This document shows, in pieces, positions 42,924-50,542 of a stretch of DNA of 64,000 bases (position 1 is its first letter; every line of letters begins with the position of its first letter). Source of the stretch: Clostridia bacterium (GTDB lineage: Bacteria; Bacillota; Clostridia; Christensenellales; CAG-138); contig JAFRNW010000035.1 in NCBI GenBank assembly GCA_017429985.1, positions 62,001 to 126,000 on the forward strand, written 5' to 3'. Below the pieces are notes generated by a model. The model worked only from the letters and a program-made list of their open reading frames with translations, had not been told where the DNA came from and did not search any database. Both the position numbers and the translations under genes were made by a program.

Positions 42924-44303
42924 TCACCTGCTCCGGTTTTTCCGGATGTGCACACAAAGAAGGATGATCGCGACAATCAGGAAAACGATCAGCAGAATCA
43001 GGATCAGCAGGATCATATGGGAATCCGGCTCTCCGGCGGGTTCCTCCGCCACAACGGCAGGGGAAGGCGTGGGAGAGGGGAGAGGCGTAGGATGATCTTC
43101 AGGCCGGGATTCTTCCACATCCCGGGAAGCGGTCAGATCGGAGGAGAAGAGGCGCTTTTCTCCAAGGGAGACGGTAACGCTTCCGAGGACGTCCCCTTTG
43201 GCGACCGGGGCGGAGATTGTTTCGCTCACATAGGAAACAGAAACGCTCGGGACCGCTGTTCCGGCGAGGATCGCCTCATACGTTTCGTCCAGTACATGCA
43301 CGCTTTGACCGGTGAAATCCGTATCCAGAGCCAGCACGCCGTTTTGCGGATCATCATCACGATAATGCTCCGTTTCAACCGTCAGCTCGCCGCAGACAGC
43401 GTCCAGATCGATCTCACCGGAGTCCAGCGTACGGAAACGGCCGAATACTTTTTTGCACACCGTCTGGGCGTCCTTGAAGCATTTATGGATGCGCTGCCCC
43501 TTTGTGCCGCCTTCCTTCAGGCCGAGAAGAACAACGATCAGGGTCACGCCGTCCTTTTCCGCCGCGGCGACAAGACATTTGCCACCCTGCACGGTCGAGC
43601 CCGTCTTGCATCCGATCGCGTCCGGATAGTATTCGCTTTTTTTCGGCTGGATCAGATTGTTGGTGTTTTCCAGATACAGTTCTTTTTCTCTGACTTCGTT
43701 CGCGGGAACGGTATAGTTCGGTGTGGATACGATCTGACGGAACGTTTCGTTCTGCATGGCGTACGCCGTCAGCAGAGCCATGTCGCGTGCGGTTGAGTAG
43801 TGATTTGATTTGTATACGCCGCTTGCCGTGACAAAATTGGTGTTCAGCATGCCGAGTTCCTGGGCCTTTTCGTTCATCATGGCCGCGAACTGCTCCACGT
43901 TCCCCGCGATATGGCATGCCAGGGCGATCGCTGCGTCGTTCCCAGAGGGAAGCATAAGACCGTACAGAAGGTCACGGATGGGAAGGCTCTCGCCTTTTTT
44001 CAGACCCATCAGCGTGTTGGAGGCGCCGAGGCGTGTCGCGGCGGGATCCACCTGCACGATTTCGTCGAGATCCGGGCAGGTTTCAAGAGCCAGGATACAG
44101 GTCATGATCTTGGTCGTGCTTGCGGGAGCTAGCTTTCTGTCCGGGTTTTTTGCATAGATCAGATTTGTCGGATCGCTTGCGTCGATGCAGACAAAGCCGG
44201 GCGCGGAGACGGTTTTATTCATATCGTCCGTATCGGCAAGCGTCATCCCTGCGAAAGGAAGAAAGAACAGTAAAACGAGCATCAGACTGATGATTCTTTT
44301 CAA
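42924..44303 (-). CDS. D-alanyl-D-alanine carboxypeptidase (peptidase S11)
   Basis: This is a low-molecular-weight penicillin-binding protein that trims the terminal D-Ala of peptidoglycan peptides. It has 459 residues from a TTG start at 44303, chosen because GAGAGG precedes it and it yields a clean signal peptide (MKRIISLMLVLLFFLPFAG). An ATG at 44327 in the same frame is the alternative. Active-site motifs are STTK (SxxK), SGN in LPSGNDAA, and KTG in CKTGSTVQGG. A C-terminal hydrophobic helix (last 30 residues) followed by Arg/Lys anchors it. Confidence 0.92.
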   Translation of the reverse strand: MKRIISLMLVLLFFLPFAGMTLADTDDMNKTVSAPGFVCIDASDPTNLIYAKNPDRKLAPASTTKIMTCILALETCPDLDEIVQVDPAATRLGASNTLMGLKKGESLPIRDLLYGLMLPSGNDAAIALACHIAGNVEQFAAMMNEKAQELGMLNTNFVTASGVYKSNHYSTARDMALLTAYAMQNETFRQIVSTPNYTVPANEVREKELYLENTNNLIQPKKSEYYPDAIGCKTGSTVQGGKCLVAAAEKDGVTLIVVLLGLKEGGTKGQRIHKCFKDAQTVCKKVFGRFRTLDSGEIDLDAVCGELTVETEHYRDDDPQNGVLALDTDFTGQSVHVLDETYEAILAGTAVPSVSVSYVSETISAPVAKGDVLGSVTVSLGEKRLFSSDLTASRDVEESRPEDHPTPLPSPTPSPAVVAEEPAGEPDSHMILLILILLIVFLIVAIILLCVHIRKNRSR

Positions 44304-45378: not shown

Positions 45379-45429
45379 ATGTTTAATAGTTTTTGCTGCA
45401 TAATCATAGAAGTTTTTTGGTTAAAACAC

Positions 45430-45458
45430 TTGACACAAAATATATAATCGTTCATGAT
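45430..45458 (+). promoter_or_regulatory. Promoter of the liv leader and operon
   Basis: TTGACA (45430-45435), a 17-nt spacer, and CATGAT (45453-45458). The transcript would start near 45465, about 27 nt before the leader peptide. Confidence 0.65.
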
Positions 45459-45491
45459 AGTACATATTTTTTATTGAAGGGAGACGGAGAA

Positions 45492-45650
45492 ATGGTGGGA
45501 CAGTGTGCGGCTGCAGCTTCAACACAGTTCTGTAACGCTTCGTCTGCTTATGTTGACCTTCGTATTCGTATGCTCAGCGTCCTGCTGAGCATTTTGATTC
45601 TTGTACTTGTACTGGTACATGACAGGGCGTCAATTACGGAACGGTCATAA
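45492..45650 (+). CDS. Branched-chain amino-acid leader peptide (52 residues)
   Basis: The small gene begins at an ATG preceded by AAGGGAG and GGAG. Residues 1-26 (MVGQCAAAASTQFCNASSAY plus VDLRIR) are polar. Residues 28-42 contain 13 Leu, Val or Ile in 15 positions (LSVLLSILILVLVLV), then HDRASITERS. Its position between a promoter and a terminator, 97 nt before a branched-chain amino-acid binding-protein gene, matches transcription-attenuation leader peptides such as ivbL or ilvL: starved ribosomes would stall in the hydrophobic run. The stretch could also be a membrane helix, so a real small membrane protein is the alternative. Confidence 0.75.
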   Translation: MVGQCAAAASTQFCNASSAYVDLRIRMLSVLLSILILVLVLVHDRASITERS

Positions 45651-45699
45651 GCTAAGAGAACGGATTATGACGGCGGTTCCGGAAAGGAACCGCTGTTTT
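45637..45699 (+). promoter_or_regulatory. Attenuator: alternative hairpins and terminator before livJ
   Basis: The terminator is GCGGTTCC (45673-45680), loop GGAAA, GGAACCGC (45686-45693), TGTTTT. GTCATAA, which includes the leader stop codon (45644-45650), pairs with TTATGAC (45665-45671). CGGAAC (45637-45642) can instead pair with GTTCCG (45676-45681), which would break the terminator stem. This set of mutually exclusive pairings is what a ribosome-controlled attenuator needs. Confidence 0.75.
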
Positions 45700-45746
45700 A
45701 TCAACAATTGGGAATTCCAATGAATAACAATAAGGAGAGAAATCAA

Positions 45747-46889
45747 ATGAAAAAACTGGTATGCATTATTCTTGCTGTGATCATGATCGCATCGTTCGCA
45801 GCCTGCAGCAGCAAACCGGCGGCGGGTTCTTCCGCGCTCAAGATCGGCGGAACCGGACCTCTGACCGGCGGAGCCGCGATCTACGGCAATGCCGCGAAGC
45901 AGGGCGCTGAGATCGCCGTTGAAGAGATCAACGCGCTCGGCGGCATGCAGATCGAACTGAAATACGAGGACGACACCCATGACGCCGAAAAAGCGGTCAA
46001 CGCCTACAACGCGCTGAAGGACTGGGGCATGGTCGTTTCCCTCGGTTCGGTCACTTCCACACCGTGCGTCGCGACATCCACTCTTACAAACGAAGACCGG
46101 ATCTTCGCGCTGACGCCTTCTGCTTCTTCGCCTGCCGTTATTGAGGGAAAAGACAATCAGTATCAGGTCTGCTTCTCCGATGACAACCAGGGAACCGCTT
46201 CCGCAAAGTACATCTCTTCCAAGGGCTTCGCCAAGAAGATCGCGGTCATCTGGAAGAACGACGATGTATATTCCAAGGGCGTCTATACCACTTTCGCAGC
46301 CGCGTGCCCGGAGAACGGTCTTGAGATCGTTTCCGACACAACGTTCACCTCTGACAGCCAGACAGACTTCTCCGTCCAGCTGACACAGGCGCAGGCTGCC
46401 GGAGCGGAGCTCGTATTCCTCCCGATCTATTACGATGCGGCTTCCCTGATCCTTGCGCAGGCAAAGGATATGGGATTCGCTCCCCTCTGGTTCGGCGTTG
46501 ACGGCATGGACGGCATCCTGGACCTCGAGAACTTTGACAAGAGTCTTGCGGAAGGCGTCATGCTTCTGACTCCGTTCGTAGCGGATGCCGACGATGCAAA
46601 GACGAAATCCTTTGTGGCCAAGTATTCCGAGAAATACGGCTCGACGCCGAACCAGTTCGCCGCGGACGCCTATGACTGCGTCTATGCGCTCTATCAGGCA
46701 TGCCAGAATGCCGGCGTTGACGGCAGCTGGAAGGCTTCCGACGCTTGCGCGAAGATGATTGAGCAGTTTACGACGATGAAGTTCGACGGTCTGACCGGCG
46801 CAGGAATGACATGGGACAAGACCGGTGCCGTTTCCAAGGATCCGAAAGCGGTCGTCATTCAGAACGGCGTCTACGTCGGCCTCGACTGA
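45747..46889 (+). CDS. livJ: Branched-chain amino-acid-binding lipoprotein
   Basis: The 380-residue type I binding protein has a lipobox (SFAACSS, Cys20) followed by the LivJ/LivK fold: KIGGTGPLTGGAAIYG near 35, then GAEIAVEEIN and TPSASSPAV. It captures Leu, Ile or Val outside the cell. AAGGAGAG precedes the ATG at 45747. An upstream ATG at 45708 in the same frame lies only 9 bp after the terminator and is less likely. It is the first structural gene after the attenuator. A GC-rich inverted repeat (46936-46957) follows it. Confidence 0.94.
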   Translation: MKKLVCIILAVIMIASFAACSSKPAAGSSALKIGGTGPLTGGAAIYGNAAKQGAEIAVEEINALGGMQIELKYEDDTHDAEKAVNAYNALKDWGMVVSLGSVTSTPCVATSTLTNEDRIFALTPSASSPAVIEGKDNQYQVCFSDDNQGTASAKYISSKGFAKKIAVIWKNDDVYSKGVYTTFAAACPENGLEIVSDTTFTSDSQTDFSVQLTQAQAAGAELVFLPIYYDAASLILAQAKDMGFAPLWFGVDGMDGILDLENFDKSLAEGVMLLTPFVADADDAKTKSFVAKYSEKYGSTPNQFAADAYDCVYALYQACQNAGVDGSWKASDACAKMIEQFTTMKFDGLTGAGMTWDKTGAVSKDPKAVVIQNGVYVGLD

Positions 46890-47040: not shown

Positions 47041-47922
47041 ATGTCCTTCTTATCCTATCTTATCAACGGCATCAGCCTGGGCAGCATCTACGCCATCATC
47101 GCGCTTGGCTATACGATGGTCTACGGTATTGCGAAAATGCTGAACTTTGCGCACGGCGACGTGATCATGGTCGGAGCATATGTATGCTTCTTTGCCGTAA
47201 CAAGGTTCTCGCTGCCGCCAGTTGTCGGAGTTCTGCTTGCCATGGTTGTCTGTACGCTCCTCGGCATGCTGATCGAGCGCCTTGCATACAAACCGCTGAG
47301 GAGCGCTCCGTCGCTGGCCGTGCTCATTACGGCAATCGGCATGAGCTATTTCCTCCAGAATTCCGCACAGCTTCTGTGGACATCGAACCCGAAAGTCTTT
47401 TCTTCCGTAGTCGGAAACGGGGCTTTGAAACTGTTCGACGGTCAGCTCTCCATTTCCTATGTTACGATCGTGACGATCATCATCTGCTTTGCGATCATCG
47501 CGCTGCTCCTGTTCATTGTTCAGAATACGAAGATGGGGAAGGCCATGCGTGCCTGTTCGGAAGACAAAGGCGCGGCGATGCTGATGGGGATCAATGTCAA
47601 TACCACCATTTCCTTCACGTTTGCGATTGGTTCCGCCCTTGCGGCGATCGCGGGCGTGCTTCTCTGCTCCGCGTATCCGACCCTCATGCCGACGACCGGT
47701 TCCCTGCCGGGCATCAAGGCGTTTACGGCCGCTGTGTTCGGCGGTATCGGATCCATTCCCGGGGCGTTTCTCGGTGGCATCCTCCTTGGCGTGATCGAGA
47801 TCTTCGCGAAGGCATACATTTCGACGCAGCTGTCCGACGCGATCGTGTTCGCGGTGCTGATTCTGGTGCTCGTGATCAAGCCGACGGGACTTCTCGGACA
47901 CGAGATCCATGAGAAAGTGTGA
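47041..47922 (+). CDS. livH: Branched-chain amino-acid ABC permease LivH
   Basis: The 293-residue integral membrane subunit has about eight helices. Family landmarks are the N-terminal SLGSIYAIIALGYTMVYG, NFAHGD near 38, RACSEDKGAAMLMGI near 170 (ATPase-contacting loop) and FGGIGSIPGAFLGG near 235. TGAGG precedes the ATG. It is followed by livM after 11 bp. Confidence 0.95.
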   Translation: MSFLSYLINGISLGSIYAIIALGYTMVYGIAKMLNFAHGDVIMVGAYVCFFAVTRFSLPPVVGVLLAMVVCTLLGMLIERLAYKPLRSAPSLAVLITAIGMSYFLQNSAQLLWTSNPKVFSSVVGNGALKLFDGQLSISYVTIVTIIICFAIIALLLFIVQNTKMGKAMRACSEDKGAAMLMGINVNTTISFTFAIGSALAAIAGVLLCSAYPTLMPTTGSLPGIKAFTAAVFGGIGSIPGAFLGGILLGVIEIFAKAYISTQLSDAIVFAVLILVLVIKPTGLLGHEIHEKV

Positions 47923-47933
47923 GGTGACAGACG

Positions 47934-49007
47934 ATGACGAAGTATAAGAATCTATCATCTCCGACAAAGAACATGGTGTCCACTTTCGCCCTGGTCATCG
48001 GACTGTTCCTGATCCTTCAGATCCTTCTTCTGACCGGCAGCGTTTCCAGCCTTGTGAAGGGGCAGCTCGTTCCGATCTGCGCGTATATCGTGATGGCGGT
48101 ATCCCTGAATCTGACGGTAGGCATCCTCGGAGAGCTCAGCCTGGGTCATGCGGGTTTCATGAGCGTCGGGGCGTTTTCCGGCGTTGTGATGTCGTCCGTT
48201 CTGAAACAGGCAGGCGCGTCGGACGGGCTCAGACTGTTCGTTTCGATCCTGACGGGCTGTGTGTTCGGCGCGATCGTCGGTTTCCTGATCGGAATTCCCG
48301 TCCTTCGGCTGAAGGGCGATTATCTTGCGATCGTTACGCTGGCGTTCGGCGAGATTATCAAAAGCATTATGAACAATCTCTACATCGGACTTGATGCATC
48401 AGGACTGCACGTGAACATGCTGAAGGATAATCTGAACATGACGGACGGCCGGGTGATCATTTCGGGACCGATGGGCGTTTCGGGAAACGATAAGCTGTCA
48501 ACGTTCTTCGCAGGTTTTCTCCTGATTCTTTTCTGCCTGTTCGTCATATTCAACTTTGTCGACAGCAGGGCGGGAAGAGCGGTTGCAGCCCAGAGAGACA
48601 ACTACATCGCCACGGAATCGGTTGGCATCAACGTCACCAAATATAAGCTGACGGCGTTCACCATCTCCGCCGGCATGGCCGGCATGGCAGGAACGCTGTT
48701 CGCTCTGAACTATTCCACGGTCGTTGCTTCCAAGTTTGATTTCAATACATCGATCCTGGTTCTGGTGTTCGTTGTTCTCGGCGGCCTTGGCAATATGAAG
48801 GGATCCATTCTTGCAGCCATCGTTCTGACGCTGCTGCCCGAACTGCTGCGGGCTTTCTCGACATACCGCATGCTTCTGTACGCCATCGTGCTGATCCTGA
48901 TCATGCTGATCACCAACAATCCGGAAATGAAGCACGTTGTAGATACGGTGCTGTCCCGGATCAAAGGCCTGTTCAGAAGAAGGAAGGGGGGTGCTGTGAA
49001 TGACTAA
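47934..49007 (+). CDS. livM: Branched-chain amino-acid ABC permease LivM
   Basis: The 357-residue second permease has about ten helices. LSLGHAGFMSVGAFSG near 65, the RLKGDYLAIVTLAFGEI segment near 120, and GLGNMKGSILAAIVL near 285 are typical. It ends 8 bp inside livG, so the two are translationally coupled. Confidence 0.95.
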   Translation: MTKYKNLSSPTKNMVSTFALVIGLFLILQILLLTGSVSSLVKGQLVPICAYIVMAVSLNLTVGILGELSLGHAGFMSVGAFSGVVMSSVLKQAGASDGLRLFVSILTGCVFGAIVGFLIGIPVLRLKGDYLAIVTLAFGEIIKSIMNNLYIGLDASGLHVNMLKDNLNMTDGRVIISGPMGVSGNDKLSTFFAGFLLILFCLFVIFNFVDSRAGRAVAAQRDNYIATESVGINVTKYKLTAFTISAGMAGMAGTLFALNYSTVVASKFDFNTSILVLVFVVLGGLGNMKGSILAAIVLTLLPELLRAFSTYRMLLYAIVLILIMLITNNPEMKHVVDTVLSRIKGLFRRRKGGAVND

Positions 49008-49854
49008 GACCAACATGGTACCGGTGCCTAGCCTCGGCATCATTCCCGAACGCGACGTCAACCGCATGCCCATCCTGGACATCCATCATCTGGGCATCGA
49101 TTTCGGCGGCCTTCATGCGGTTGAGGATTTCAACCTGGTGATCGGTAGAACGGAGATTGCCGGCCTGATCGGGCCGAACGGCGCTGGAAAGACGACCGTA
49201 TTCAATCTTCTGACGAACGTATATACCCCATCCCGCGGCGTCATCCTTCTGGACGGCGTGGATATCCGGGGGAAAAAGACCTGGCAGCTCAATGAGATGG
49301 GAATCGCCCGTACGTTCCAGAACATCCGCCTGTTCAACAAACTGACGGTGGAGGACAACGTCAAGGTCGGCCTTCACAATATCTGCCGCTATTCGACGCT
49401 CGAGGGCGTGCTAAGGCTTCCGAGATACTGGAAGATGGAGAAGGAAGCGCATGAGAAAGCGATGGAACTCCTTTCCATCTTCGACATGCAGCATATGGCG
49501 AATTATGTAGCCGGTTCGCTTCCGTACGGCGCGCAGAGAAGGCTTGAGATCGTCCGTGCCCTTGCGACCAATCCGAAGCTTCTGCTTCTGGATGAGCCCG
49601 CTGCCGGCATGAACCCGTCCGAGACGGCGGAGCTGATGCAGAACATCCGGAAGATCAGGGATGACTTCCAGATCGCCATCATGCTGATCGAACATGATAT
49701 GAACCTCGTTATGGGAATCTGCGAAGGTATCGCCGTCCTGAATTACGGAAAAATCATTGCGAAGGGGACTCCGGACCAGATCAAAGCCGATCCGGTCGTC
49801 ATCGAGGCATATCTTGGCCGCCAGGGAGAGGAGAGTCTGCATGCTGAAGGTTGA
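49000..49854 (+). CDS. livG: Branched-chain amino-acid ABC ATPase LivG
   Basis: The 284-residue ATPase has Walker A GPNGAGKTT (about 59-67), the LivG-type ARTFQNIRLF (about 103-112), the less usual signature YGAQRRLE instead of LSGGQ-like wording (normal for LivG), Walker B LLLLDEPAAGMNP and a LIEHDM switch. The first 22 residues are an extension before the ATPase core (PILDIHHLGIDFGG). The end overlaps livF by 14 bp. Confidence 0.95.
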   Translation: MTKTNMVPVPSLGIIPERDVNRMPILDIHHLGIDFGGLHAVEDFNLVIGRTEIAGLIGPNGAGKTTVFNLLTNVYTPSRGVILLDGVDIRGKKTWQLNEMGIARTFQNIRLFNKLTVEDNVKVGLHNICRYSTLEGVLRLPRYWKMEKEAHEKAMELLSIFDMQHMANYVAGSLPYGAQRRLEIVRALATNPKLLLLDEPAAGMNPSETAELMQNIRKIRDDFQIAIMLIEHDMNLVMGICEGIAVLNYGKIIAKGTPDQIKADPVVIEAYLGRQGEESLHAEG

Positions 49855-50542
49855 TAACATCAATGTCTATTACGGCGCCATCCATGCCATCAAGGACGTC
49901 AGCTTTGAGGTGCAGGAAGGGGAGATCGTAACGCTGATCGGCGCAAACGGCGCAGGCAAGTCGACCATTCTGAAGACGATTTCCGGGCTGCTCCACACCA
50001 GGACCGGCAGCATCCATTATGAAGGGAAGGATCTGAAGGGGATCGCCCCGCACAATATCGTGAAGATGGGCGTTGCACACGTGCCGGAAGGCAGGAGGAT
50101 GTTTTCCAGGATGACGGTGGAGGAGAATCTCCAGATGGGCGCATTCACGCAGCCAGCCGCCTCCGTCGCGGATTCCCTTGAGAATGTCTATTCCCGCTTT
50201 CCGAGACTGAAGGAAAGAAGAAAACAGGTGGCTGGCACGCTGTCCGGCGGAGAGCAGCAGATGCTCGCGATGGGCAGAGCCCTGATGTCAAAGCCGAAGC
50301 TGATGATGATGGACGAGCCGTCCATGGGGCTTGCGCCGATCCTGGTCGAACAGATCTTTGATATCATCAAGGAGCTCAACCAGGCGGGATCCACGATTCT
50401 TCTGGTGGAGCAGAACGCGCTGATGGCCCTTTCCGTCGCGAACCGGGGATATGTGCTTGAAACGGGGCGGATCGTGCTGAGCGCTTCCGCGAAGGACCTG
50501 CTGAACAACGATTCCGTCAAGAAGGCCTATCTCGGCGGATGA
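49841..50542 (+). CDS. livF: Branched-chain amino-acid ABC ATPase LivF
   Basis: The 233-residue second ATPase starts at 49841 (MLKVDNINVYYGAIHAIKD), preceded by GGAGAGGAGAG. Longer frames upstream only repeat livG DNA. Walker A GANGAGKST (about 36-44), LSGGEQQM (about 134-141) and LMMMDEPSMGLAP are present. It ends the operon before a strong terminator. Confidence 0.95.
   Translation: MLKVDNINVYYGAIHAIKDVSFEVQEGEIVTLIGANGAGKSTILKTISGLLHTRTGSIHYEGKDLKGIAPHNIVKMGVAHVPEGRRMFSRMTVEENLQMGAFTQPAASVADSLENVYSRFPRLKERRKQVAGTLSGGEQQMLAMGRALMSKPKLMMMDEPSMGLAPILVEQIFDIIKELNQAGSTILLVEQNALMALSVANRGYVLETGRIVLSASAKDLLNNDSVKKAYLGG

Follow-up and report, generated by a model that had tools for sequence, protein, structure and literature searches.

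Why should a short open reading frame (ORF) crowded with codons for leucine, valine and isoleucine, with a terminator soon past its stop codon, stand directly before the genes for a branched-chain amino acid (BCAA) importer? The locus lies in the 64-kb stretch of DNA analyzed here (the window), and the answer proposed is that positions 45430-45747 are, very probably, an attenuator through which the ribosome controls transcription of the livJHMGF operon. Here, the leader and its competing hairpins would have the importer of this uncultured clostridium switched on only when BCAAs run short.

The leader ORF and its relatives

All parts of the locus lie on the forward strand. A putative sigma-A promoter, assigned by consensus match only, occupies 45430-45458, with TTGACA at 45430-45435 and a -10-like CATGAT 17 nt further 3'. 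An alternative pair overlaps it (TTAAAA at 45421, TATAAT at 45443-45448), and either pair scores 10/12 against the consensus. The predicted ribosome-binding site, AAGGGAG (45477-45483), lies 8 nt 5' of the ATG at 45492. From there the leader ORF, whose translation is predicted, runs for 52 codons plus a TAA at 45648-45650 (MVGQCAAAASTQFCNASSAYVDLRIRMLSVLLSILILVLVLVHDRASITERS; 45492-45650). Codons 2-20 (45495-45551) specify a polar N-terminus rich in Ala, Ser and Cys. Codons 28-42 (45573-45617), the presumed control codons, are LSVLLSILILVLVLV; 13 of these 15 encode Leu, Val or Ile, with GTA used three times. A base-by-base check confirmed what had originally been read here: the TTGACA hexamer, a 52-codon ORF with its own ribosome-binding site, and the 13 Leu/Val/Ile codons.

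Downstream, livJ (45747-46889) encodes the periplasmic-binding protein of a BCAA ABC transporter (Peripla_BP_6, PF13458, E 2.9e-49). The Pfam families BPD_transp_2 and ABC_tran identify the rest of the operon (47041-50542) as livH (47041-47922), livM (47934-49007), livG (49000-49854) and livF (49841-50542). The excess of amino acid codons that marks a ribosome-mediated attenuator is thus found before genes that import the same amino acids.

Richness in Leu, Val and Ile is, of course, also a property of membrane segments. One further 15-mer with at least 12 such residues occurs in the window, the membrane anchor at the C-terminus of a D-Ala-D-Ala carboxypeptidase (42924-43118, reverse strand), which, reaching 13/15, is the kind of segment that scans for leader peptides would pick up falsely. 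For this reason, the richness by itself is not decisive. The leader RNA is also more stably folded than its shuffled versions (z -4.1 and -5.1).

Relatives were sought through livJ. The DNA 5' of livJ was examined at 80 loci from a search of genome contigs and at 30 from the window's own family, one of these being the window's own; the LivJ relatives come from Clostridia metagenome-assembled genomes (MAGs), Oscillospiraceae and Synergistaceae. At 43 loci, the window included, a short ORF rich in Leu, Ile and Val (LIV) with a strong terminator soon past its stop codon stands directly before livJ. An AAGGAG-type ribosome-binding site is found at the same distance in most of them, and livH follows in 42, the contig ending in the remaining one. 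Fourteen of the loci belong to the window's family (the window, L100, L105-107, L110-112, L114-116, L118, L121 and L128). This recurrence of ORF, ribosome-binding site, terminator and liv operon supports the original proposal that a leader-peptide attenuator controls the transporter.

The peptides themselves do not persist. Their lengths vary between 26 and 95 codons, and most cannot be aligned from one group to another; what persists across the 43 loci is codon composition and RNA architecture. Similarity searches with the peptide against 61 and 103 relatives returned only chance-level matches and no detectable family homologue, an outcome expected for a leader and equally for a spurious ORF. 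A search for the peptide upstream of liv genes, suggested at the outset, succeeded by synteny through livJ, which recovered the leader loci, and failed by peptide similarity.

The distribution is patchy. Among the 80 nearest livJ loci, roughly 30-35 carry the leader, which counts against the attenuator. In L019 and L020, the closest relatives by livJ, a weak terminator-like hairpin lies some 30-70 nt 5' of the gene and no LIV-rich ORF is present, possibly decayed or different control. Two MAGs labelled Chloroflexi (L081 and L084) carry leaders of 79-80 codons with a hairpin inside the ORF and a terminator, which suggests transfer or mislabelled bins. Among cultured bacteria, Oscillibacter valericigenes An890 (L023) has a leader.

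Predicted competing hairpins around the stop codon

An intrinsic terminator is predicted between the leader stop codon and livJ, at 45671-45699 (CGGCGGTTCC-GGAAA-GGAACCGCTG followed by TTTT; -18 kcal/mol). Its stem has 10 bp including one G.U pair (45671-45680 with 45686-45695) and begins 20 nt past the stop; in relatives the arrangement is similar, with a gap mostly of 6-40 nt. The terminator was originally described as an 8-bp, GC-rich stem with a T run within 22 nt of the stop. Its presence and distance hold, while the stem is longer than stated and the U run is only 4 long, which is rather short and a point against the attenuator.

The 5' arm of this terminator has another potential partner. 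Region 2 (45635-45650), which overlaps the stop codon, contains CGGAAC (45637-45642) and GTCATAA (45644-45650); region 3 (45665-45681), which overlaps the terminator 5' arm, contains TTATGAC (45665-45671) and GTTCCG (45676-45681). Both pairings proposed at the start, CGGAAC with GTTCCG and GTCATAA with TTATGAC, are present and mutually exclusive with the terminator (region 3:4). Together, they make a bulged antiterminator of 13 bp, which lies across the stop codon and recruits the terminator 5' arm. In the minimum free energy fold, region 1 (TGACCTTCGTA; 45554-45564) can tie up region 2 in the absence of a ribosome. A region-1-like partner at codons 17-30 is also found in family members L100, L105-107 and L128.

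How would a ribosome choose between these structures? This was modelled by folding the RNA, up to position 45688, that is left free by the footprint of a ribosome with its A site at a given codon. With the A site at codons 21-44, the antiterminator dominates in the model (at most -14.7 kcal/mol), and the terminator arm pairs upstream with a mean probability of about 0.8. The same probability is 0.11 with the A site at codon 47 and 0.15 at the stop codon; with the A site at codons 50-52, part of the terminator arm is taken up by a weak alternative pairing (-4 kcal/mol). In the model the change of structure falls between A-site codons 44 and 47, shortly past the last BCAA codon (42), and the BCAA codons 28-42 fall inside the range predicted to permit the antiterminator. 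In the modelled ribosome-free fold, regions 1 and 2 are paired with each other and the terminator is present. As modelled, the window leader follows the textbook logic of a four-region attenuator.

In the proposed cycle, RNA polymerase would start at the TTGACA promoter and transcribe the leader ORF. At 45570-45602, within the ORF and where the BCAA codons begin, a hairpin and T-rich site would probably hold it until the first ribosome came. Were charged tRNA-Leu, -Val or -Ile scarce, the ribosome would dwell on codons 28-42 and keep region 1 covered; region 2 would then be free to pair with region 3, and the liv genes would be transcribed. Were these tRNAs charged, the ribosome would reach the stop codon and cover region 2, the terminator would form, and transcription would stop. 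It would also stop with no ribosome at all, the 1:2 and 3:4 structures forming together. Translation, pausing, termination and the response to amino acids are, in this cycle, what we infer; the analysis itself showed the sequence parts, their recurrence across loci, the covarying in-ORF hairpin, the codon bias and the modelled switch.

Comparison across loci bears on the antiterminator. Over 18 leader groups, pairing of the stop-codon segment with the terminator arm exceeds that in cross-locus controls (combined p 7e-4) and in shuffles (p 1e-5). An exclusive antiterminator that a ribosome at the stop could mask is thus indicated both by the model and by these groups, with modest support at each locus. 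For the window alone, the pairing is modestly above shuffles (z -2.2; about 6% do as well), which counts against the attenuator. In four relatives (group g13; L110, L111, L116 and L118), the partner of the terminator arm is GGGGCTGCC, immediately past the Leu codons. The Oscillospiraceae leaders have a hairpin CGCTTGACTGT..ACAGTAAAGCG over the stop codon, with 85% of cells paired versus 20-49% when the positions are slid; the terminator itself is 98% paired. Covariation of the alternative stems was offered originally as a check; for the antiterminator in the Oscillospiraceae leaders it is not significant, a further point against the attenuator.

The leaders of Synergistaceae (L037, L039, L045, L053 and L059) are short (30-37 codons) and Ile-rich. 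In these, the control codons pair with sequence past the stop, as in ATTATTCCTGTC / GGCAGGAGTGAG, and GGAGT can pair with ACTCC of the terminator; the 1-2-3-4 layout is different, the operon the same.

The hairpin within the ORF and the role of the peptide

One element did not figure in the original prediction and was added by the follow-up analysis. A hairpin ATGCTCAGC-GTCCT-GCTGAGCAT (45570-45592) lies just ahead of the BCAA run and is followed by the T-rich TTTGATTCTT, the whole covering 45570-45602. In a systematic scan at -12 kcal/mol or below, 27 of the 43 leaders, the window's among them, had an in-ORF hairpin of 9-11 bp whose tail was mostly T-rich; it begins at codon 27 both here and in L100. 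Hairpins of -10 kcal/mol or below occur in only 8.7% of livJ segments of equal length. Since each hairpin is the best of its ORF, its pairing is partly a matter of selection, and the controls are this background and the compensatory changes at aligned positions. In 17 aligned leaders all 170 hairpin cells are paired, and both sides have changed in 5 of 10 pairs. Doubly changed cells number 24, versus 5.8 in shuffles, and none of 500 shuffles reaches 24.

The tails also carry a signature. The Bacillus NusG pause motif TTNTTT is matched exactly in 16 of the 27 leaders (background 0.6%), and at least four of its five T positions are matched in all 27 (background 6.7%), the window having four. These are the sequence features of a Bacillus-type NusG-dependent hairpin pause, in which a hairpin lies about 11-12 nt 5' of the pause and TTNTTT is on the non-template strand. 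In Bacillus subtilis tlrB, such a pause synchronizes the polymerase with the ribosome on the leader peptide (PMC6851288, PMC12288461). By this precedent, the in-ORF hairpin and T-rich tract are probably a pause with the same synchronizing role.

A second role is possible, if rather unlikely: the hairpin and tract might be a genuine first terminator that fires when the ribosome lags, making two tandem terminators under the control of translation. The stems have 8-12 bp at -12 to -19 kcal/mol, some leaders have terminator-grade T tracts (L024, TTTTTGTTTTTC; L112, TGTTTTTATTTT), and a consensus scan labels the window site terminator-like. Many tails, however, are interrupted (TTATTATTTG) and fit the NusG pause motif better, and a pause has a Firmicute precedent. 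Either way the attenuator stands; only the role of one of its parts differs.

The polar N-terminus invites a further elaboration. It had been taken, with the length of the peptide, as unusual for a leader; neither is peculiar to this locus, for both recur in the leaders of relatives. N-termini across the leaders (the window and L023-L128) are enriched in Ala (1.8x), Ser (2.8x), Cys (3.2x) and Met (2.4x), and Cys occurs among residues 1-45 in 33 of the 43. Predicted region 1 in the window's family separates the polar N-terminus from the BCAA run. As a hypothesis from the model, stalling within the N-terminal codons would tip the leader towards 1:2 pairing and hence termination, a second input opposite to the first. 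Slow Ala, Ser, Cys or Met codons among the first 20-35 would then leave region 1 and the in-ORF hairpin uncovered and so stop or pause transcription, as slow Leu, Val or Ile codons permit it. Such a pair of opposed inputs is unlikely. If real, it would be an AND-NOT gate read by one ribosome, with liv on only when BCAAs run low amid a plentiful supply of other small amino acids. The N-terminus might also serve as a spacer, or reflect common descent of the Oscillospiraceae leaders.

Might the product of the ORF be the point, rather than its translation? A stable small membrane protein, such as a component of the Liv transporter or a protein regulating it, would leave the terminator merely to set the level of livJ. 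The hydrophobic segment could span a membrane, and Oscillospiraceae leaders have two hydrophobic stretches. Pairwise dN/dS among leaders is below 1 (0.31-0.80). It is, however, higher than that of livJ (0.13-0.54) in every pair, so that the leaders change faster at the protein level, and exchanges in the control region are mostly among Leu, Ile and Val; this pattern is more in keeping with selection for codons and RNA structure than for a protein. The hydrophobic residues are almost only these three, unlike those of membrane helices from the same loci. The best 15-codon stretch holds 11-13 of them in 27 of the 43 leaders, a level reached by only 0.2% of 421 membrane-like 15-mers. Some relatives have only 26 codons. 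These observations make a membrane protein very unlikely.

An apparent protein motif in the Oscillospiraceae leaders, LDAI.ASIII, belongs here as a rejected candidate. Read codon by codon, it hardly varies, wobble positions included, and forms a hairpin of 9-11 bp followed by ATTATTATT or TTTTTGTT; with the covariation in agreement, it is an RNA hairpin, not the mark of a membrane protein or of an arrest peptide.

Nascent-chain arrest, in which the peptide in the exit tunnel and a ligand such as the free amino acid stall the ribosome, rather than scarcity of charged tRNA, is hardly to be expected either. The long N-terminus with its recurrent Ala/Ser/Cys/Met composition is suggestive, and other Firmicute leaders arrest in this way (the RYR motif of tlrB, PMC6851288). 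Against this, the leaders lack a shared residue motif next to any one stall point; their control residues are interchangeable among Leu, Ile and Val and spread over about 15 codons. Synonymous choice, in turn, points to the speed of decoding. Val is GTA in 52% of cases in leader control regions versus 12% in livJ (p 8e-34), and Ile is ATT in 66% versus 19% (p 8e-29); the ATT excess comes partly from the T-rich tract and remains when recounted 3' of it.

That the ORF arose by chance, ahead of a constitutive terminator or an unrelated small RNA, is scarcely credible: the peptide indeed lacks a similarity match in the family, but the same architecture stands at 43 liv loci including Synergistaceae, covariation, ribosome-binding sites and codon bias hold across leaders, and 60 dinucleotide shuffles of the window contained, on both strands, no ORF of up to 100 amino acids with at least 12 Leu/Ile/Val per 15 codons.

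Known attenuators and the host

The attenuator proposed here has, of course, classical counterparts. The trp, his, ilv and leu leaders of E. coli use the region 1-4 logic, show super-attenuation without translation, and synchronize polymerase and ribosome by a pause. Attenuation also acts on E. coli livJ. In the E. coli leaders the pause hairpin is the 1:2 hairpin, whereas the liv leaders have a separate in-ORF hairpin ahead of the control codons; they also reach 95 codons, unlike the E. coli leaders. Leader attenuators of the E. coli type have been modelled (PMC1183508).

Closer relatives in lineage exist. The ilv-leu leader of Staphylococcus aureus (PMC5794164) encodes a Leu-rich attenuator peptide of 26 amino acids before ilvD and responds to Leu. 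It shares with the liv leader a Firmicute host, an ORF of BCAA codons with a ribosome-binding site, a terminator past the stop and an alternative antiterminator. It differs in controlling biosynthesis rather than an ABC importer and in its short peptide. Its terminator lies 52 nt past the stop, its antiterminator sequesters the poly-U and leaves the stem intact, and an in-ORF pause hairpin is not among the features described. Rli60 of Listeria monocytogenes (PMC5864092), a BCAA leader of 13 amino acids before ilvD, combines BCAA codons with the classic switch between 2:3 and 3:4, which was tested there by hairpin, start-codon and ribosome-binding-site mutations. Unlike the liv leader, it serves a biosynthetic operon from a CodY-controlled promoter and is short. 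His leaders occur in bacilli (PMC2965389). The tlrB leader shares a pause hairpin with a T-rich motif and terminator-based attenuation; its arrest, however, is induced by antibiotic at the RYR motif rather than by amino acid starvation, and its pause lies past the leader peptide, the liv candidate being inside the ORF before the control codons.

T-boxes are the other comparison. As the liv leader would, they sense uncharged tRNA, and in other Firmicutes they control LIVCS symporters (PMC2494555); unlike it, they bind tRNA directly, without translation. In the window none (RF00230) was found at the gathering threshold, nor on the leader at E<=10, and no Rfam cis-regulatory family matched the leader above its curated threshold. 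A T-box or riboswitch at the liv leader was accordingly rejected. Elsewhere in the window genome there are ten T-box matches, five above the cut-off, and T-boxes stand before ValRS and IleRS, as judged from the translated downstream genes. The genome would therefore use both tRNA-sensing systems. This tempers the original view that Firmicutes usually rely on T-boxes and that such a design before a transporter in an apparent clostridium is unusual: T-boxes are indeed present, but leader-peptide attenuators of BCAA biosynthesis are established in Firmicutes (PMC5794164, PMC5864092).

What is new here is the class of target (a liv ABC importer), the lineages, the long leaders and the separate, probable in-ORF pause hairpin; ribosome-mediated attenuation itself is known. 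The open-access literature yielded only biosynthetic cases and no leader peptide before liv ABC genes. Ribosome-mediated attenuation would then cover not only BCAA biosynthesis but also a high-affinity importer, in uncultured Clostridia, Oscillospiraceae and Synergistaceae, and bacteria with this design are abundant in gut and rumen. The generality of transcription-translation coupling in Firmicutes is debated, and the covarying, probable in-ORF pause hairpin would offer a natural system for polymerase-ribosome synchronization there.

The metabolism of the host gives import particular weight. The source genome (a 2.13-Mb assembly in 46 contigs, 98% complete) lacks ilvC, as do most sampled relatives. 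Import is therefore probably the only supply of BCAAs, and their control point.

Other regulatory RNAs match elsewhere. A SAM riboswitch (RF00162, 58 bits) lies at 2043-2128 on the forward strand of the window. In the window's own genome (G000), three T-box matches (C4:217046, C4:221352 and C4:223944) are clustered within about 7 kb; judged by eye, two precede AMP-binding-like genes whose start resembles a helix-turn-helix, and one precedes a gene resembling homocitrate or isopropylmalate synthase.
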